NCBI GenBank assembly: GCA_022792815.1
Contig: JAAWBS010000009.1
Coordinates: 62,001 to 126,000, forward strand
Direction of reading: 5' to 3'
DNA length: 64,000 bases
Source: Hungatella sp.
GTDB lineage: Bacteria > Bacillota > Clostridia > Lachnospirales > Lachnospiraceae
Made by a program: the position numbers and the translations under genes. Below the pieces are notes generated by a model. The model was not told where the DNA came from and ran no database searches. It worked only from the letters and a program-made list of their open reading frames with translations. Of the stretch, positions 18,620-28,826 are shown in pieces (the stretch's first letter is position 1; each line of letters opens with the position of its first letter).

Positions 18620-19813
18620 ATGAGAATTCGGTTCGATTATGTTCGACTGTTCCTGATCTTGTTATTATGCATGATTCCTGTAGGGCTATTCGGCATCCCA
18701 GGATTAAAAATTTTATGGTTTGGAGCATTGGGAATTATGCTCTCAGAGGTCATGATAAAAAAGTATCCTATTTATACCCATTATGATAATTGGAATTCCT
18801 TCTATCTGTTTCTTTACTTGCTGATGCATGTGATTTCTACCTTTATAAACAACGGCAATTGGGTATATAATGCGACTACATTAATTGTCATGGTCTCTAT
18901 GACCTTGGTGATCAGCTGTGAAATCTGCAGCAATCCTAAGCGATTTTTGCATTGTCTTGAAAAAGTATTGATTTTAACCTTAATAACAGAGTTTGTATTA
19001 TATCTTGCGGATGCCGGCAGCTATTTCATGGATTTTGCCTGTATGAGATTGTATTATATTTGTTGGGCAATCATTTATATGCTGAATCATTTGAATAGAA
19101 AAAGAAATCATTTCTTTTATATTCTGTCAGCAGCAGCTGCTGTGATCACGATTATCAAACCCCAGATAGGATCTGATGGTTCAGCTAACTATGAATGGAC
19201 ATTTTACTTAATTATCTTGATTTTATGTATGGTGTCAATCAGCCTGAATCATGGAAATCTGTGGAAGATACTTACCGGGAAACGGGTATTCATTGTCATC
19301 ATATTTTTAAATTTATATTTTGTAATGTTTCAAGCTTTTATGAAGAGTAAACTTTTCCAATTTATTATCGTTGATATTATGCATAAGTCAGGCGATATTT
19401 CGGGACGTGCAGGTATTTGGCGCAAGGCATTGTCCATGGTCCATCCAAATATACTTTTGGGATATGGGACATCATTAGCCGGAATATCTTCAACAGGAGA
19501 TTATTGGACAGAGTTTGTCCGAATTTATGGGCCTCATAATCAAATGCTGTATATTCTACTGTCCGGCGGCCTTATAACACTTATGTTTTATGGATGGATT
19601 CTTTACAAAGTATCCTCCCGGTTAACGAAAGCCGATGGTAAATATGCATGCATTATTTGCGCAGGGATACTTGTTTCTTATCTGGAGCTTTTAGTCACCT
19701 TTAGAAATATGATAAACTGCATTCCGCTATTCATCTTACTTTGGATCGGATATTTCCTTCCAATCATACAGAATGAAACAGTTGTTAAAAAGAGACGGTC
19801 ATGGAGGATTTAG
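18620..19813 (+). CDS. Wzy-like O-antigen/EPS polymerase or ligase (polytopic membrane protein)
   Basis: Many hydrophobic segments; SGRAGIWRKALSMVHPNILLGYG...GPHNQMLYILLSGGLI is typical of Wzy/WaaL-type proteins. Confidence 0.75.
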   Translation: MRIRFDYVRLFLILLLCMIPVGLFGIPGLKILWFGALGIMLSEVMIKKYPIYTHYDNWNSFYLFLYLLMHVISTFINNGNWVYNATTLIVMVSMTLVISCEICSNPKRFLHCLEKVLILTLITEFVLYLADAGSYFMDFACMRLYYICWAIIYMLNHLNRKRNHFFYILSAAAAVITIIKPQIGSDGSANYEWTFYLIILILCMVSISLNHGNLWKILTGKRVFIVIIFLNLYFVMFQAFMKSKLFQFIIVDIMHKSGDISGRAGIWRKALSMVHPNILLGYGTSLAGISSTGDYWTEFVRIYGPHNQMLYILLSGGLITLMFYGWILYKVSSRLTKADGKYACIICAGILVSYLELLVTFRNMINCIPLFILLWIGYFLPIIQNETVVKKRRSWRI

Positions 19814-19814
19814 T

Positions 19815-20717
19815 ATGGATTTTAATCTGGAACCGGAGAACCGGTGTGGATATGAAGTTTCGGCAAAGCTGAAAAAGATATGGAAAACAGAGCTCCAGAT
19901 CTTACAGGAAATTATTCGTGTATGCAATAAGTATCATCTGAGGTTGACGATGTGGGCGGGTTCTATGTTGGGAGGTGTCCGCCATCAGGGGTTTATTCCT
20001 TGGGATGATGATCTGGACGTGGCTTTGCTCAGAGAAGATTATGAAAAATTAGTGGAGGTTGCTGATAAGGAATTTAAAAAACCTTTATTTTTTCAGACCG
20101 CTCTGACGGATAGCAAATTCTTTTTCGGATATGCAAGACTGCGAAATAGTGAAACCACAGGAATGATTACCTGGAATCAATCATCAGACTATAATAACGG
20201 GATCTATGTGGATATATATGTTTTGGATGGATACGATGACAAGAAAGCAAACCTCAGACGTCAATTGCAAAAAAGGGATTTTATCAGTCAGTTTTTAAAT
20301 ACTTATTATGCAGATGATACCTATCAATCCCGAAAGCCTGCCATGGTTACGAAACTTTTCCAATCGATTGCGCATGTACATCCCTATGAATATTGGAACA
20401 AAAGATATACAAATATTATCACAGAGTATAATGATACTGCGACGAGAGTCAGCCTGATGACCCATGAAGAAAAAGATATTAAAAAATACTGGTGCAGTAA
20501 AAGCGATTTTAATGAGATAATCAAACTTCCTTTTGAAAACATGGAGGTTCCGATTCTAAAAAACTATGATAAAATACTTCGAAATTTTTATGGGAACTAT
20601 ATGGAATTTCCCCCGGTGGAACTGCGCGGGGCCTGGCATGAAAATTTAATTATTTTTGAACCGGATATTCCGTACAGAGAGTACTTAGCCTTCAGAGGAG
20701 CACAAAATGACAAGTAG
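19815..20717 (+). CDS. LicD family phosphotransferase
   Basis: RLTMWAGSMLGGVRHQGFIPWDDDLDVALLREDYEKL signature; start chosen at ATG 19815. Confidence 0.9.
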   Translation: MDFNLEPENRCGYEVSAKLKKIWKTELQILQEIIRVCNKYHLRLTMWAGSMLGGVRHQGFIPWDDDLDVALLREDYEKLVEVADKEFKKPLFFQTALTDSKFFFGYARLRNSETTGMITWNQSSDYNNGIYVDIYVLDGYDDKKANLRRQLQKRDFISQFLNTYYADDTYQSRKPAMVTKLFQSIAHVHPYEYWNKRYTNIITEYNDTATRVSLMTHEEKDIKKYWCSKSDFNEIIKLPFENMEVPILKNYDKILRNFYGNYMEFPPVELRGAWHENLIIFEPDIPYREYLAFRGAQNDK

Positions 20718-22155
20718 CCTTGGGAACAGGTATAGGGACATGGCAAAACCAGCCAGGGCATCGATGTGGTTTGTGATCTGCAGTTTCATACAAAAAGGAG
20801 TTACCTTTTTTACGACCCCTTTTTTTACGAGAATGCTCTCCACCGATGCCTATGGGACCGTTGTCATTTACAACTCATGGTATGAAATCATTACCATCCT
20901 CGCTACGTTTCAATTGGCAACCGGAGTATTCAATAAAGCGATGATAAAGTTTGAGGATGACAGGGACGGATATACCTCATCGACATTAGTATTAGCCTCT
21001 GTTCTGACCGGATCAGTGTTTGGAATTTATATATGGTTTGCCGATTTATGGAATGGTTTGTTTGATCTGCCAACCTGTATGATGATCATGCTGTTCCTCG
21101 ACATCTTTTTTTCGACAGCGATGTCATTATGGTCGATCAGAAACAGGTTTGAATATCGGTATAAAAGCGTAATTCTATTGACTCTGACGGTCAATATCTT
21201 AGGGCCGCTGTTAAGTATCCTGCTTATTATTTTATCACAGGAACAAAATCAGGCATATGCAAAAATCGGCGGCGTATTGGCAGTTAAAATTTTGGTATAT
21301 TTAGGGGTATATCTGAAGATCCTTCAAAGAGGAAAAACATATGTAAACACAAGGTACTGGAAATACGCCTTGATCTATAATATTCCTCTGATACCCCACT
21401 ATCTCTCACAACAGGTTTTAAGCCAATCGGATCGTATTATGATCAACAAGTTATGCGGTTCCAGTGATGCCGGAATATACGGAGTCGCATACCAATTATC
21501 CATGGCATTATTTATTTTCACATTATCCATACATAACTCGTTTACTCCATGGACCTTTGAAAGTATACGGGACCGAAATTACAGGGCCATTGGACGTTTG
21601 GCTTTAAAAATAGAAATAGGAGTCGGCCTTGCATGCTTTGCTTTTTCTCTATTTGCCCCAGAATTAATCTATATTCTCGGAGGGAAGGAATATTCCGCAG
21701 CCGTTTGGATCGTTCCCCCTGTTACCATGAGCATACTCTTTCAGACGATTTATACTTTTTTCGGAAATATCGAATTTTATTTTGAAAAAACCAAGTTTGT
21801 CATGGTGGCCTCACTCCTGGTCGCGGTCTTAAATGTAGGGTTAAATGCAGTCTTCATCCCTTTATTTGGTTTTGTGGCTGCCGGTTACACCACACTTTTT
21901 TGCTATGCAGTATATAGTTTTGTTCACTATTGGTTTATGGTACATATATGCCGTCAGAATCATATCCCTTCCATCTACGATGGGACGAGCATGTGGATTT
22001 GCGGAATCGTGTGTATTATATTGAGTTTTCTCTCATACATCTTATATCTTAATACGGCGGTCAGGTATGTGGTCATACTGACTATCTCGATTGCCGTATG
22101 GAGTTTCTGTCATAAACATAAGGCCAAACTATTGGCTTTTATAAAGTCTAAGTGA
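20707..22155 (+). CDS. Oligosaccharide flippase (Wzx-like)
   Basis: VICSFIQKGVTFFTTPFFTRMLSTDAYGTVVIYNSW; polytopic. Confidence 0.87.
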   Translation: MTSSLGNRYRDMAKPARASMWFVICSFIQKGVTFFTTPFFTRMLSTDAYGTVVIYNSWYEIITILATFQLATGVFNKAMIKFEDDRDGYTSSTLVLASVLTGSVFGIYIWFADLWNGLFDLPTCMMIMLFLDIFFSTAMSLWSIRNRFEYRYKSVILLTLTVNILGPLLSILLIILSQEQNQAYAKIGGVLAVKILVYLGVYLKILQRGKTYVNTRYWKYALIYNIPLIPHYLSQQVLSQSDRIMINKLCGSSDAGIYGVAYQLSMALFIFTLSIHNSFTPWTFESIRDRNYRAIGRLALKIEIGVGLACFAFSLFAPELIYILGGKEYSAAVWIVPPVTMSILFQTIYTFFGNIEFYFEKTKFVMVASLLVAVLNVGLNAVFIPLFGFVAAGYTTLFCYAVYSFVHYWFMVHICRQNHIPSIYDGTSMWICGIVCIILSFLSYILYLNTAVRYVVILTISIAVWSFCHKHKAKLLAFIKSK

Positions 22156-22164
22156 GGATGAGTA

Positions 22165-22968
22165 ATGAAACATCAACAACATTTTGCTTTTAATATATGG
22201 GATTTTGAATCCGCAAAAGCGGTAATCGATGCTGCCTCTTTGGTTAAACAAGATGTCATTTTGCAGACATCCACCGGTATTTTTAGACAGTTACCGGCAA
22301 AGGTATTCTCTGATTTTGTAAAAGATTACTCGGCATTGAAAGGAGTTCACACATGGCTTAATATCGACCACTGTAAGGACAAAGAGACGCTTTTTTCGGC
22401 TGTGGATAACGGATGGGATATGGTCATGGCTGACGGTTCATCGATGCCTGTGGATCAAAATATAGCTTTTACCAATGAAGTGGCTGCCTATGCCCACTCC
22501 CATGGCGTTTTTGTAGAAGCCGAGGTGGGACAGGTAAAGGGGATTGAGGATGACGTGGCAGTGCAGCAGGATGAGATCGCATCGAGAGAGGAGATAGAAA
22601 TATTCCTCACAGCCACAGATGTCGATTTCATTGCCGTGGCTTTCGGCAATGCGCATGGAGAATATACGGTTGAGCCGAAGCTTCACTATGAGCTTGTCCA
22701 GTATACTACCTCGATTACGGACAAACCTTTTGTCGTCCACGGCGGAAGCGGGCTGTCAGACGAAGTGCTGGCGAGACTGATCGGAATGAAAGGTGTCAAA
22801 AAGCTAAACATATCAACCGACCTGAAGACGGCATATAGGAGAGGAATTGAAAAAACCGGCAAAAACTGGACACAGCCTGTGGATGCGTCAAAAGTAATCC
22901 ACGATGAGATTATGGCGGTGGCTGCGGCAAAGATGAAGCTGATAACTTCCGGAGGAAACAAAGAATGA
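22165..22968 (+). CDS. Class II fructose-bisphosphate aldolase-like (ketose-phosphate aldolase)
   Basis: Metal ligand motifs LNIDHCKD, AFGNAHGEY, FVVHGGSGL. Confidence 0.85.
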   Translation: MKHQQHFAFNIWDFESAKAVIDAASLVKQDVILQTSTGIFRQLPAKVFSDFVKDYSALKGVHTWLNIDHCKDKETLFSAVDNGWDMVMADGSSMPVDQNIAFTNEVAAYAHSHGVFVEAEVGQVKGIEDDVAVQQDEIASREEIEIFLTATDVDFIAVAFGNAHGEYTVEPKLHYELVQYTTSITDKPFVVHGGSGLSDEVLARLIGMKGVKKLNISTDLKTAYRRGIEKTGKNWTQPVDASKVIHDEIMAVAAAKMKLITSGGNKE

Positions 22969-24491
22969 ATGTATTGGTACTGAACATGGGAATGAAAAGC
23001 ATACGGAGTATTATCTTTGACGGTAACGGAAAAAAGCTGTCCAGCGCTTCCCGAACGCTGGCATCGGCGATCAATGAAACAAGGGTCGAGCAGTATCTGG
23101 ATGAATGGTGGGAGAAGGCAGTGGAGGTGATGAAAACTTCTATCCAAGATGCGAGGATTCGGAAGGTCGATTACATAACCGCAACCACATCCGCTTCCTG
23201 CCTTGCATGCATGGACAGCGCCGGCAACCCTCTGGGGAACGCTATCATGGTTTCTGATAAGCGGGCCATGGAGGAAGCTGACGAAATAAAACACAGTGCG
23301 TTCTATGAAAGCTTAGAGAATGACACCGGACTTGAAGTGTCAGCCAGTTTGATGCTGCCGAAGATCCTCTGGGTCAAAAACCATGAGCCGGAGATGTTTG
23401 AGAAGACAAGGTACTTTTTAACACCGAACGACTACCTCATTTACCATTTATGCGGAGAGGTCTTTACAGACGAACTGAATGCGCTTAAGTACCACTATTC
23501 CCTCAATACTTGCTCCTATCCGACCGAACTTCTTGGTGAACTTGGCATTCCAAAAGAGAAACTTCCGACCGTAATGAGGACAGGAGGCATGGCAGGAACG
23601 ATATTGCCGGAGGTTGCAGAGAAGATAGGATGTCAGAATCCTGCAAAGATTGTGATCACTTCTTATGATGCCATTTGTTCCTTTATCGGCAGCGGGGTAT
23701 CAGACGAAGGGGAAGCCAGCGATGTATCCGGTACGGTGACCGTCTTTCGAATGCTCAGCAGGAAGGATAGCCTGCTCCCCAGTACCAGGGTATATACCAC
23801 ACCATTCCATCAGGGCAGGTTTCACATTATCGGCGGATCTAACAACCTTGGAGGCGGGTTGATCGAGTGGGTCAAGCAATGCTATTATGCGAAAGAAGAA
23901 TATCCATACGAGGTTATGGAAAAAGAGGCTGCGGAATCCGATATCGGTGCAAGAGGCGTCATCTTCCTGCCATACCTTCTCGGTGAACGTGCCCCAATCT
24001 GGAATGATAATGCCAGGGGAACATTCTTCGGCCTTGAGAGGATGCACACAAGGAAGGATATGACCAGGGCCGTATTTGAAGCGGCGGCATTTATAGACCG
24101 CACCATGATGGAGGCCATCGGGGAAACATCTGCCGATGTAACGACAGTGAGGCTGTCCGGAGGGCTTGCCAGGGTCAATCTGATCTCCCAGATCAAGGCT
24201 GATGTGACCGGCAAAGAGGTGATTGTGTTATCCGAATTTGAAACAACTGCCTCAGGGGCCGCCATGATGGTATTGAACGGACAGGAGGGGATATCATTTG
24301 CAGACTTGGCGGAGAAATTCTCAAAGAGCCGGATGACAATCCATCCAGATCTGGAAAACCATGAGAAATACAATGTGGTTTATAAGCTCTTTAAGGAAAC
24401 TTATCAGCAGTTAGTTCCGATGTTCGACAGAAGAATTGAACTGTTGGACACGATCAGAAATTCGAAAGAAACCCAGATAGAAAACTTATAA
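22965..24491 (+). CDS. FGGY-family carbohydrate kinase
   Basis: FGGY-type fold: ITATTSASCLACMDSAGNPL; VRLSGGLARVNLISQIKADVTGKEV; 4-bp overlap with the aldolase gene. Confidence 0.85.
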   Translation: MNVLVLNMGMKSIRSIIFDGNGKKLSSASRTLASAINETRVEQYLDEWWEKAVEVMKTSIQDARIRKVDYITATTSASCLACMDSAGNPLGNAIMVSDKRAMEEADEIKHSAFYESLENDTGLEVSASLMLPKILWVKNHEPEMFEKTRYFLTPNDYLIYHLCGEVFTDELNALKYHYSLNTCSYPTELLGELGIPKEKLPTVMRTGGMAGTILPEVAEKIGCQNPAKIVITSYDAICSFIGSGVSDEGEASDVSGTVTVFRMLSRKDSLLPSTRVYTTPFHQGRFHIIGGSNNLGGGLIEWVKQCYYAKEEYPYEVMEKEAAESDIGARGVIFLPYLLGERAPIWNDNARGTFFGLERMHTRKDMTRAVFEAAAFIDRTMMEAIGETSADVTTVRLSGGLARVNLISQIKADVTGKEVIVLSEFETTASGAAMMVLNGQEGISFADLAEKFSKSRMTIHPDLENHEKYNVVYKLFKETYQQLVPMFDRRIELLDTIRNSKETQIENL

Positions 24492-24504
24492 CAGGGAGAC
24501 GGCA

Positions 24505-25620
24505 ATGAAAGCTTATGGTTTAACAATCGCAACAAGAACCTATTTTGGCAACAGATGTGTGGAGGAAGCGCTTAAAAAAGAGAGGACTATTATAGGGAAA
24601 AAGAGTCTTCTCATTACCACAGGCGGAGCATTAAAACGGCTTGGGTTTGTTGATGAAATTACCGGCTGGTTGGATGCAGGAGTTGTCTGCTATGACAAAG
24701 TGACTGCCAACCCTGATGTGGTTGAAATAAGAGAAGCTGTAAGACTTGGAAAAGAACATGGTGTCTCTTCTGTAATCGGCTTCGGCGGCGGCAGTGCCAT
24801 AGATGCCGCAAAAGCGGCGGCAGTGGGCATCGTTTCTGATATTGACGTGGAGGATTACCTTCTCAAAGGCATAACGCCTCCTGAGAATACGCTCCCCATT
24901 ATCGCCATCCCCACAACCTCCGGAACCGGGGCAGAATTAAGCAGAGGCGCTATCATCTCAAGTCGGGAAAAGAAGGTTAAATCAGGCATCCGGGGAGAAA
25001 AGGTAGCCCCTGCTGTTGCCATTGTGGATCCGACCTACACGTTTTCACTCCCTCTGGATGTAACCATGGAGGCCGGTTTTGATGTGTTTGCCCACGGGGC
25101 GGAGAGCTATTGTTCGGTGAATGCCAATCCGTTTTCCGATATGCTTTCCGAGAAGGCGATACGAATAGTAGGAGAGACACTGCCGAGGTTAAGTAAGAAT
25201 ATAAACGACAGGGATGCCCGGGAGATGATGAGTTTTGCGAGCCATATTATGGGCTACAATGTGAGGGATGTGGGGAACTGTCTGCCTCACCGTCTTCAGT
25301 ATCCCATTGGCACAGCAACTGAGACAAGCCATGGGGCCGGATTGATTGCCTTATATCCTGCATGGATGGAACATGAGCAGGGTGTGAACAGGGAACGTGT
25401 AGACAGGACTTTGGATTGGCTTGGATGTAAAAAAGCAGTTAGCGCCGGGGAGCGGATCAAAGAATGGCTGGACAATCTGAACCTTTCCAGAACGATCATG
25501 GAGCTTGGAAATACACTGACTGTCCAAGAGCTTACAGGAAGCGTTACAGGAAATTTGAAGAATGACAAGCTGGCTGATGAAGAAGGCATTATTGCCAAAT
25601 TATACAGGGAGTCCATGTAA
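24505..25620 (+). CDS. Iron-containing alcohol dehydrogenase
   Basis: GFGGGSAIDAAKAAA; IAIPTTSGTGAE; metal ligand motifs DVFAHGAESY and LPHRLQYPIGTATETSHGAGL. Confidence 0.9.
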   Translation: MKAYGLTIATRTYFGNRCVEEALKKERTIIGKKSLLITTGGALKRLGFVDEITGWLDAGVVCYDKVTANPDVVEIREAVRLGKEHGVSSVIGFGGGSAIDAAKAAAVGIVSDIDVEDYLLKGITPPENTLPIIAIPTTSGTGAELSRGAIISSREKKVKSGIRGEKVAPAVAIVDPTYTFSLPLDVTMEAGFDVFAHGAESYCSVNANPFSDMLSEKAIRIVGETLPRLSKNINDRDAREMMSFASHIMGYNVRDVGNCLPHRLQYPIGTATETSHGAGLIALYPAWMEHEQGVNRERVDRTLDWLGCKKAVSAGERIKEWLDNLNLSRTIMELGNTLTVQELTGSVTGNLKNDKLADEEGIIAKLYRESM

Positions 25621-25638
25621 TCGAAAGGGGGAAAAATT

Positions 25639-26361
25639 GTGCAGGCAATTATAATGGCAGCAGGAAAGGGGAGCAGGCTGGGAAGTCTGACGGAACATCT
25701 TCCAAAGAGCCTGCTTGAAATCAAAGGGAAGAAATTACTGGATATCAATATCGCTCTGCTTCACAAGTATGGCATCTGGGATATTACGATCGTTACAGGA
25801 TACCAAGATGGAATGTTTGTAGATGCAACAAAAGGAATTCCGGGAATAACCCTTGTTTATAATCCGTTCTACGAGTTTACCAATGTGATCGGATCTTATT
25901 ATATGGGAATGAAGCAGCTTCATGATGATTTTATTTATCTCCATGCTGATACCATATGCGACATTGGCATCTTCCATGAGTTGCTGAGGGCTGATGGAGA
26001 CATTGTACTGCCTGTCGATACGAAACCTTGCGATGAGGAGGCAATGAAAGTAAGGCTGGAAGATGAGAAAATCGTAGAAATCACAAAAGAGATGCCTGTT
26101 GAGACTGCCGCCGGTGAATTTATTGGCATTGCCAAGATTAGGAAGAACGTGATCGATGATCTGAATGCAAGTACGGCAGGAGTTCTTCGGGACAAAATCT
26201 TCACCTCCTACTTTGAGGGGGCCCTCCAGCGGGTACTAGATCTGAAGAGGTACGATGTGAGAATGATTGAGACCAACGGCAGATTTTGGGGAGAAGTGGA
26301 TTTCCTGGAAGACTATGAAAGAGCCAAGGAGAATATCAGTACAGGACTGTTAGACTTATAA
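25639..26361 (+). CDS. Nucleotidyltransferase (LicC/PntC-like, phosphocholine/AEP cytidylyltransferase-type)
   Basis: QAIIMAAGKGSRLGSLTEHLPKSLLEIKGKKLLD; GTG start with AAAGGGGG upstream. Confidence 0.8.
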   Translation: MQAIIMAAGKGSRLGSLTEHLPKSLLEIKGKKLLDINIALLHKYGIWDITIVTGYQDGMFVDATKGIPGITLVYNPFYEFTNVIGSYYMGMKQLHDDFIYLHADTICDIGIFHELLRADGDIVLPVDTKPCDEEAMKVRLEDEKIVEITKEMPVETAAGEFIGIAKIRKNVIDDLNASTAGVLRDKIFTSYFEGALQRVLDLKRYDVRMIETNGRFWGEVDFLEDYERAKENISTGLLDL

Positions 26362-26404: not shown

Positions 26405-27901
26405 ATGATTTTTAATTCCATCCAATTTTTAGTGTTCTTTCCGGCAGTTTTTATGGTTTACTTTTTGCTTCCGGCAAAAATCAGATATATCTGGCTGCTG
26501 ATATCCAGTTACTATTTTTATATGTGCTGGAATCCGAAATATATTTTTCTCATTTTGTTTTCTACGATGATCACTTATATGAGCGGCCTTTTTATGGATA
26601 CAATAAAAAGGACATCGTTTAACAGCCGGACTCAAAGGCTGTGTCTTAATGGCTGTGTAGCGGTAAGCCTTATACTGAACCTGCTGATACTCTTTTACTT
26701 TAAATATTTTGAGTTTACCATTGCTGCCATGAATCGAATCCTAGGCACGGCAGGGATCAGTATATCTGTGCCGGCCTGTGATATACTGCTCCCTGTAGGA
26801 ATATCTTTTTATATTTTTCAGGCACTGGGGTATACGATTGATGTATATAGAGGGGAAATTCATGCAGAAAAGAATTTTTTTCGCTATGCACTTTTTGTGT
26901 CGTTCTTCCCTCAACTGGTGGCAGGGCCTATTGAACGTTCGAAAAATCTTCTGAGGCAGGTGAACACCCCCACCTTTTTTGACGTGGAATGTGCGCGTCA
27001 GGGTCTTCTCACCATGGCATATGGACTGTTTATGAAGGTGGTGGTCGCGGACCGACTTGCCGGTATCATTAACCCGATTTACAGTGACTGGAACAGCCGG
27101 ACAGGCATGAGTCTTGTGACCGCTACAATCCTCTTCGCCTTTCAGATCTATGGTGATTTTGAGGGATACTCCCAGCTGGCCATCGGCAGTGCCCGGGTTC
27201 TTGGATTTTACATCGATCAGAATTTCAAAACGCCGTATCTTTGTACCAGTATCCGGGATTTCTGGCAGAGATGGCACATATCCCTCACAAACTGGTTTCG
27301 GGACTACTTATATATTCCTCTTGGGGGAAACAGAAAGGGAAAACCAAGAAAGTATTTCAATACGATGATCGTATTTCTGGTATCCGGGTTATGGCATGGA
27401 GCCAGCTGGCATTTTGTAGCCTGGGGAGGGGTAAACGGTATTTACAATATCATACAGGACATTACGGATTCCGTCAGACATAAGGCATACCGGATTTTAA
27501 GGATTGATACGACGGCATTCATTTGGAAATGTTTTTGCGGGTTTGTCACATTTTTCTTTATCGACATCTCGTGGCTGTTTTTCAGAGCGGACGGGGTTCG
27601 TCAATCGATCTCGATATTAAAAAAGATGTGGAATGAGTGCAATCCATGGTACTTTTTCTCAGATGAATTCTATGACCTTTTTGGAACGGCAAAAGACATG
27701 GGGATAATCTTGTTTTCATTATCCATTATGGCGCTGATCGATATCTTTCGGAGAAAAGGATTTGATCTCAAGGGATATCTGTTGCAGCAGCAGATTTTGT
27801 TCAGGTGGCTCTTTTATTTTGCAGCTGTTTTTATCATTATGATGTGGGGAGCATATGGGAGCGGTTATGAACAGACACAGTTTATTTATTTCCAGTTTTA
27901 A
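26405..27901 (+). CDS. MBOAT family O-acyltransferase (AlgI/DltB-like)
   Basis: LLPVGISFYIFQALGYTIDVYRGE; FPQLVAGPIER; VSGLWHGASWHFVAWGGVNG. Confidence 0.93.
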   Translation: MIFNSIQFLVFFPAVFMVYFLLPAKIRYIWLLISSYYFYMCWNPKYIFLILFSTMITYMSGLFMDTIKRTSFNSRTQRLCLNGCVAVSLILNLLILFYFKYFEFTIAAMNRILGTAGISISVPACDILLPVGISFYIFQALGYTIDVYRGEIHAEKNFFRYALFVSFFPQLVAGPIERSKNLLRQVNTPTFFDVECARQGLLTMAYGLFMKVVVADRLAGIINPIYSDWNSRTGMSLVTATILFAFQIYGDFEGYSQLAIGSARVLGFYIDQNFKTPYLCTSIRDFWQRWHISLTNWFRDYLYIPLGGNRKGKPRKYFNTMIVFLVSGLWHGASWHFVAWGGVNGIYNIIQDITDSVRHKAYRILRIDTTAFIWKCFCGFVTFFFIDISWLFFRADGVRQSISILKKMWNECNPWYFFSDEFYDLFGTAKDMGIILFSLSIMALIDIFRRKGFDLKGYLLQQQILFRWLFYFAAVFIIMMWGAYGSGYEQTQFIYFQF

Positions 27902-28826
27902 AGGGAATGCCATATTTTTAGGAAAAGCGTTGTATCTGTTTGGGGCAGTGACACTATTTTGTTTTAAGATCGTGATGCCTCAATATTCCGGAGGCTATGA
28001 TGCCTCCTTGATTGACAAAGTGGAACGGTTAAAATCGATTGCCGGTCCCAAAATTGTATTGATCGGAAATTCTAATTTGTCCTTTGGAATTGATTCCGAA
28101 AGATTAGAGCAGGCTTTTGATATGCCTGTAGTTAACATGGGACTCCACGGAAGTTTGGGAAATGTATTCCACGAAGAGATGGCCAGACTAAATGTCTGCG
28201 AAGGAGATCTTTATATTATCTGTCACACGGGATATTCTGATGATAATCTTCTTGGAGACAAGGCTCTGGCCTGGAGTACGATTGAAAACCATGTTGAACT
28301 GTGGCCGATTTTGCGTACACAGGATATCTGGCCTATGATGAAGGCGTATCCTGTGTACTTGAAAAAGTGTCTGGAGCTTTTTGTATCGGGCAAGGGAAAC
28401 GGACTGCCGGGAGGGTGCTATTCCAGGGATGCGTTCAACGAATATGGGGATATTGGGTTAGAACGTGTTTCGTCTGAGTATACATTTGAATCGCCGGTGC
28501 TTCCTCCCCTAGTTAATGATATGGTAATCGACAGGCTCAATGGGCTGTCAGAGTGGCTGTCTGAAAGGAGGGCGACACTCTTGGTAGCAGGATACCCCAT
28601 CGGAAAGGGGGAGCTGACAGCGCCGGAGGAAGATTTCGTCAAGATTCAGGATGAGCTGACAGAGAGACTGAAATGTCCGGTCATCTCCGATTACCGGGAT
28701 TATATGTTTGATTATAGTTTCTTTTTCAATACGAATCTGCATCTGACAACAGAAGGTGCGGCGCTGAGAACGCAGCAGTTAATCGAGGATTTAAATCAGT
28801 GGATGATGTCAGATGAGGGTCTGTAG
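27870..28826 (+). CDS. SGNH-hydrolase-like / AlgX-J or DltD-type partner of the MBOAT protein
   Basis: N-terminal TM; KIVLIGNSNLSFGIDSERLEQAF; DYSFFFNTNLHLTTEGAALRTQQLIEDL (NxxH-like); overlaps MBOAT ORF by ~32 bp. Confidence 0.65.
   Translation, partial: NRHSLFISSFKGNAIFLGKALYLFGAVTLFCFKIVMPQYSGGYDASLIDKVERLKSIAGPKIVLIGNSNLSFGIDSERLEQAFDMPVVNMGLHGSLGNVFHEEMARLNVCEGDLYIICHTGYSDDNLLGDKALAWSTIENHVELWPILRTQDIWPMMKAYPVYLKKCLELFVSGKGNGLPGGCYSRDAFNEYGDIGLERVSSEYTFESPVLPPLVNDMVIDRLNGLSEWLSERRATLLVAGYPIGKGELTAPEEDFVKIQDELTERLKCPVISDYRDYMFDYSFFFNTNLHLTTEGAALRTQQLIEDLNQWMMSDEGL

Follow-up and report, generated by a model that had tools for sequence, protein, structure and literature searches.

Here we analyse four consecutive genes encoded in a 64,000-nucleotide stretch of a Hungatella sp. 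contig (JAAWBS010000009.1; this whole stretch is referred to as the window). The genes, called ALD, KIN, ADH and NTP below, encode a class II aldolase, an FGGY-family kinase, an iron-type alcohol dehydrogenase and a LicC/PntC-like nucleotidyltransferase (Table 1). An initial annotation, made from the letters alone, had described them as tightly packed on one strand with a 4-bp overlap between aldolase and kinase, and the coordinates of the open reading frames (ORFs) agree with this description (overlap at 22965–22968, remaining gaps of 13 and 18 bp). The four families named there were likewise borne out by Pfam profiles and by solved relatives. According to profile searches, the setting of the cassette is a Wzx/Wzy-type polysaccharide cluster, comprising glycosyltransferases, a Wzy-like protein, LicD, Wzx, the cassette itself and an MBOAT acyltransferase; the LicD and TagF-like genes that had been noticed in the cluster were both recovered by their profiles, the LicD ORF with the limits given in Table 1.

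Table 1. Genes of the cassette and of the surrounding glycan cluster, in positions of the window.
Feature	Position	Strand	Length and start	Profile or structural match
ALD, class II (FBA-family) aldolase	22165–22968	+	267 aa	Pfam F_bP_aldolase PF01116 (2e-66)
KIN, FGGY-family kinase	22965–24491	+	508 aa	Pfam FGGY_N PF00370 (1e-40), FGGY_C PF02782 (1.8e-32)
ADH, iron-type alcohol dehydrogenase / aldehyde reductase	24505–25620	+	371 aa	Pfam Fe-ADH PF00465 (1.1e-40), ADH_Fe_C (5.7e-28)
NTP, LicC/PntC-like CTP:alcohol-phosphate cytidylyltransferase (predicted)	25639–26361	+	240 aa, GTG start	Pfam NTP_transf_3 (1.6e-12); best solved matches 6pd1, 1jyk
LicD phosphotransferase	19773–20717	+		PF04991 (3.6e-40); PWDDDLD motif
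Wzx-type flippase, between LicD and ALD	20707–22155	+		PF01943 (1.4e-13)
TagF-like CDP-glycerol-type transferase	14603–15766	+		PF04464 (9.4e-71)

By searching 61 genomes with NTP, three close relatives were found in two congeneric genomes, and at all three of them ALD, KIN, ADH and NTP stand in the order of the window with 42–90% identity. Scanning a KIN alignment against 85,488 species genomes, with NMGMKSI as one of two search patterns, gave 49 loci; after removal of one 27% match and three duplicates and addition of the three congeneric loci, the final set contained 48 loci beyond the window (referred to by L numbers), most of them from metagenome-assembled genomes and with neighbouring genes taken from a simple ORF caller. 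The hosts belong to Lachnospiraceae, Selenomonadaceae, Treponema and Paenibacillaceae, and include the named isolates Selenomonas ruminantium HD4 and Cohnella thailandensis DSM 25241. No locus with a sufficiently long contig lacks KIN, ADH or NTP (the NTP of L044, which was not called as an ORF, was detected by tblastn). Pairwise distances among the four genes were correlated at 0.86–0.95, and none of 999 label permutations gave values as high. The four-gene arrangement is thus not a product of chance, recurring as it does in the three congeneric and 45 more loci, and the four genes are a real, conserved unit. This unit is rare and patchily distributed: of 26 congeneric genomes, three carry KIN (E ≤ 1e-120) and exactly these three carry NTP (E ≤ 1e-45); among 397 sampled genomes of the family, none but the window's own passed a KIN threshold of 1e-90; and the best non-cassette FGGY kinases sampled from the phylum reached at most 286 bits, compared to 977–1040 bits for the four sequences in the query alignment.

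Among solved structures, NTP is most closely related to PntC (6pd1) and LicC (1jyk), and models of sugar-1-phosphate nucleotidyltransferases score it far under their cut-offs. A plain sugar-1-phosphate enzyme is rejected on these grounds, including the hexose-1-phosphate enzyme that the initial annotation had set against its own proposal. In Tde-PntC, R15, K25 and K153 are required for activity (PMC6697681); the equivalents in NTP, R13, K23 and K150, were found in all 42 cassette sequences. The GxG(S/T)R...PK signature is also present, with R13, P22 and K23 in 42 of 42 sequences and Ser or Thr at residue 12 in 40 (Asn in one and Asp in one). The site at which LicC and PntC contact the amine is different: H102 occupies, in 42 of 42 sequences, the position of one amine-contacting acid (PntC E104, LicC D105), while the second acid is retained as E193 (PntC E196, LicC D192). 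NTP therefore lacks the paired acids of the amine-binding LicC/PntC enzymes, which leaves its membership in the fold family unaffected, and because His replaces one of the two acids, an amine substrate such as choline or 2-aminoethylphosphonate (AEP) appears less likely. Further positions near the site are mostly invariant, suggesting that a single substrate is used throughout the cassette NTPs.

The catalytic residues of ALD and ADH are also kept. All 43 ALD sequences have the catalytic Asp and the zinc-binding His residues (D68, H69, H164 and H192), and the metal ligands of ADH, which had been described as intact, were indeed present in all 46 cassette members (D193, H197, H262 and H276). 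ALD is distinguished by the Arg of the DPR motif, which is present in FbaA, KbaY and GatY but in none of the ALDs of the cassettes, where the position holds L, I, V, T, S or M (and a gap in one sequence). This Arg is R331 of E. coli FbaA and presumably contacts the phosphate at C6 on the aldehyde half; no paper was found in a literature search on E. coli FbaA Arg331. If this role is right, loss of the Arg would fit an unphosphorylated aldehyde. The relatives of ADH are enzymes of small aldehydes or simple alcohols, and the position of FucO H267 is Tyr in the cassette ADHs. An invariant Arg263 of ADH was considered as a phosphate binder and dropped, since butanol dehydrogenase 1vlj has an Arg at the equivalent place.

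KIN was scored at 259.5 bits by the XylB model and at 199.3 bits by the gluconokinase model (both under cut-off), followed by FucK (124.1) and RhaB (53.6). Its residues were compared with those of seven E. coli references (XylB, GlpK, FucK, RhaB, LyxK, LsrK and AraB). The catalytic Asp D235 (XylB D233, GlpK D245), G256-T257 of the phosphate-2 motif and the Gly-Gly pair G399-G400 are kept in 45 of 45 sequences. The phosphate-1 Asp, found in 7 of 7 references (XylB D6), is Asn7 in 45 of 45, and an invariant Lys11 stands at the place of GlpK T14; the conservation of both residues was partly selected by the NMGMKSI pattern, a bias from which the members with Leu10 and the loci found by NTP are free. 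The substrate-binding residues have been exchanged as well, both R83/E84 of GlpK (A77 or S77, and S78 in KIN) and M77/H78 of XylB. In L083 and L084, KIN is represented by two neighbouring ORFs, perhaps through a frameshift or a duplication.

Within two genes of the cassette, a TagF-like gene was found in 27 loci and LicD in 12, together 39 of the 48 loci. Six of the other nine lie at contig ends. The remaining three are L075, in which a CDP-alcohol phosphotransferase (PF01066) directly follows NTP (Cohnella), L063, in which TagF stands on the opposite strand four genes before ALD, and L060, which has both TagF and LicD farther upstream. LicD lies immediately or almost immediately upstream of ALD in L031, L039, L040, L042–L045, L047 and L077. 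LicD proteins take CDP conjugates and move the phosphate along with the alcohol (PMC4873967), and PWDDDxD is present in all LicDs compared. Cassettes whose KIN is 79–90% identical to that of the window carry LicDs just 25–49% identical to the window LicD; since similar cassettes are paired with such divergent LicDs, the simplest reading suggests one constant donor and varying acceptors.

As acceptor-side enzymes in the window, both LicD and the TagF-like gene had initially been proposed, and the two fared differently. The cassette-adjacent TagFs form one group in the tree, except that of L033, and the TagF-like gene of the window was placed outside this clade. For that reason it was rejected as the partner and is probably not dedicated to the cassette, which makes LicD the likelier user of the cassette product in this cluster. 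TagF-type cassettes are often flanked by a fusion of a TagD-like cytidylyltransferase with a Gfo/Idh/MocA oxidoreductase, by a glycerophosphodiester phosphodiesterase and by a protein of ~850 aa without a Pfam match; the group with the fusion lies upstream of the cassette in L032, L054, L058, L061, L064, L081, L082, L085 and others. Because the phosphodiesterase and the TagD fusion so often adjoin the unit, ordinary CDP-glycerol is probably made separately from the cassette.

Taken together, these data make it probable that the four genes are a dedicated unit for one short alcohol or polyol phosphate that carries no amine and is activated with CDP, and that would be transferred here by LicD to the Wzx/Wzy-made surface glycan and elsewhere by a TagF-like enzyme or a CDP-alcohol phosphotransferase. 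This supports the initial proposal of a CDP-activated polyol or short alcohol phosphate that decorates the polymer. The sequence itself shows which families are present, that they form a conserved unit, that catalytic residues are retained and that the unit is partnered by transferases; the use of CTP, the order of the steps and the chemical identity of the alcohol are what we infer. In the order that we tentatively prefer, ALD would split a ketose-1-phosphate into dihydroxyacetone phosphate (DHAP) and an unphosphorylated small aldehyde, ADH would reduce the aldehyde to an alcohol, KIN would phosphorylate the alcohol, NTP would convert the alcohol phosphate and CTP into a CDP-alcohol, and the transferase would pass the phospho-alcohol to the glycan. 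This order is preferred because each family then acts in its usual way, and the gene order KIN-NTP-ALD-ADH in Selenomonadaceae, where ALD adjoins ADH and KIN adjoins NTP, was counted in its favour. We regard it as evenly balanced whether the product is a CDP-alcohol not previously described (i.e. none of choline, ethanolamine, AEP, sn-glycerol-3-phosphate, ribitol, arabinitol and mannitol), and the cassette a tailoring unit that is exchangeable throughout Firmicutes and Treponema and includes an FGGY-fold enzyme of altered phosphate-donor site (Asp to Asn, Thr to Lys).

Several observations weigh against this reading. ALD is not strictly needed: it is missing from L050, L053, L060, L069 and L082, and the genomes of these five loci hold no cassette-grade ALD elsewhere, only generic FBAs of at most 191 bits, whereas the cassette ALDs of two control genomes reach at least 317 bits. 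The five loci lie at scattered places in the KIN tree, and for that reason ALD has probably been lost several times. ALD being dispensable, the KIN-ADH-NTP core would make the donor and ALD would supply something otherwise available. S61, a further residue presumably near the site of the DPR Arg, is retained in ALD. In ADH, an invariant Arg163 without a counterpart in FucO, YiaY, EutG and GldA could bind an anion, fitting reduction of a phosphorylated substrate. As the phosphate-1 Asp of KIN is replaced by Asn throughout, ordinary Mg-ATP kinase activity is uncertain. Finally, shared ancestry accounts for part of the distance correlations among the four genes.

Some of these points fit another scheme, in which KIN would phosphorylate the far end of a ketose, ADH would reduce the product to an alditol phosphate and NTP would form a CDP-alditol, as for CDP-ribitol or CDP-arabinitol, with ALD merely supplying or recycling the ketose pool. 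The loss of ALD from loci that keep KIN, ADH and NTP and the Arg163 of ADH speak for it, as do the top-scoring families of KIN, XylB and gluconokinase, which yield a 5-phosphate and a 6-phosphate, respectively. However, ALD is left without a clear role, ADH is related to reductases of small aldehydes and to enzymes that oxidise simple alcohols, and the replaced M77/H78 are the substrate residues of XylB; we consider this scheme unlikely. It is rather improbable that the product is an isomer of CDP-glycerol (e.g. CDP-2-glycerol or CDP-sn-1-glycerol), which would be one instance of the preferred order: ALD would release glyceraldehyde, ADH would reduce it to glycerol and KIN would form an unusual glycerol phosphate. 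The surroundings of TagF-type loci, with their phosphodiesterase and TagD-like enzyme, are indeed rich in glycerol phosphate, and in L036 a related NTP is accompanied by TagF, a HAD phosphatase and an Fe-ADH_2 enzyme that by eye resembles EgsA/AraM; but the separate TagD suggests that ordinary CDP-glycerol comes from elsewhere, and KIN is devoid of the GlpK substrate residues R83/E84.

A phosphonate branch, in which ADH and NTP would have a phosphonate (e.g. 2-hydroxyethylphosphonate) as substrate, is favoured by the closeness of NTP to PntC, by a moderate score of ADH to PsrA (TIGR03405) and by the presence of a phosphoenolpyruvate (PEP) mutase in the genome. The latter, however, is encoded on another contig (C50) with its own different LicC-like NTP and a LicD; a profile search of the genome gave this as the sole match to PF13714, i.e. 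none in the window. In addition, such a branch has no use for KIN and ALD, and the NTP matches of ~32% with phosphonate-type neighbours (by eye) form a separate group. The branch was therefore rejected as highly improbable. We also strongly disfavour, as scarcely credible, a fucose-type catabolic module of kinase, aldolase and FucO-like reductase that came into the glycan cluster by chance, with NTP unrelated. The three families do correspond to the scheme of fucK, aldolase and fucO (L088), and the initial annotation had allowed for a catabolic trio with no link to the nucleotidyltransferase or LicD; NTP, however, is never found apart from KIN, on which ground the module was rejected, most copies adjoin a LicD or TagF gene, and KIN is nearer to XylB than to FucK or RhaB, the type of 1-kinase that such a module would hold along with a sugar isomerase.

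Among the known systems, the Lic1 phosphocholine pathway (LicA, LicC and LicD) resembles the cassette in having an alcohol kinase, a cytidylyltransferase of the LicC fold and LicD in one surface-glycan locus, with the shared logic of alcohol, alcohol phosphate, CDP-alcohol and transfer, and differs from it in that the cassette kinase is of the FGGY family rather than a choline kinase, an aldolase and an Fe-ADH are added, and one amine-contacting acid of NTP is His. Phosphonate tailoring by Pnt enzymes (PepM and PntC) has the nearest solved relative of NTP and common catalytic residues, but the cassette locus is without a PEP mutase, and kinase and aldolase have no role in the Pnt system. In the capsule pathways of CDP-ribitol, CDP-arabinitol and CDP-2-glycerol, the LicD- or TagF-type transferases depend on a reductase and a cytidylyltransferase for their alditol phosphate; to our knowledge, no CDP-polyol pathway has been described that combines Fe-ADH and a LicC-type cytidylyltransferase with an aldolase and an FGGY kinase. 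The fuc (FucK, FucA and FucO) and ydj (YdjH kinase and YdjI aldolase) systems of E. coli hold a kinase, an aldolase and, in fuc, an Fe-ADH reductase within a single operon or region, but these are catabolic and have no nucleotidyltransferase; FucA belongs to a different aldolase family, and XylB and gluconokinase are the closer matches of KIN. Human FGGY kinase increases CDP-ribitol from added ribitol, and CDP-ribitol is used by FKTN and FKRP, which have LicD domains (PMC4873967). Judged on the features compared, the cassette follows the working principle of Lic1 and of the CDP-polyol pathways, yet is a member of neither. No account of this enzyme combination was found in the literature searched, including that on CDP-2-glycerol and unusual CDP-polyols (subscription journals being mostly outside the search), and the cassette is apparently an undescribed pathway unit.

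Decoration of bacterial surface polymers with phospho-alcohols affects their recognition by host immunity, phages and enzymes, and the cassette can serve as the sequence mark of a decoration so far unrecognised, in bacteria of the gut, the rumen and the environment. One donor cassette combined with varied LicD and TagF-like transferases would be a clear case of modular glycan tailoring, and with only four genes the product should be identifiable by straightforward reconstitution.

Related nucleotidyltransferases were also observed in other settings. In L036 (7629–11504, minus strand), the LicC-like enzyme is 31% identical to NTP and stands beside the metal-ADH-superfamily reductase, the phosphatase and the TagF-like transferase mentioned above; this is possibly another CDP-glycerol-type cassette, probably starting from DHAP and differing by the lack of an aldolase and an FGGY kinase. 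L034 (6926–10905) and L035 (6717–10732) are near-identical neighbourhoods of one genome, in which a LicC-like NTP lies between a PEP-mutase-like (by eye) and a thiamine-enzyme-like protein of 650 aa. In the window's own genome, PEP mutase, LicC-like NTP and LicD lie within ~5.5 kb (G000:C50:14012–19484), probably a separate phosphonate tailoring cluster.

In the window, the Wzx gene overlaps LicD by 11 bp and ends 9 bp before ALD; as the intervening gaps are small, the stretch from LicD to the MBOAT gene is likely a single transcript. The MBOAT O-acyltransferase and a following 323-aa protein without a Pfam or NCBIfam match overlap by 47 bp (26405–28826) and are perhaps an acyl-decoration pair. 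Upstream, the protein encoded at 16898–17794 matches GINT1_N (glucosamine inositolphosphorylceramide transferase 1, N-terminal), and its relatives occur in other glycan loci, e.g. L031 and L051. An integrase/recombinase-like ORF (by eye; 11511–12416) lies behind polC at the upstream border of the glycan cluster.

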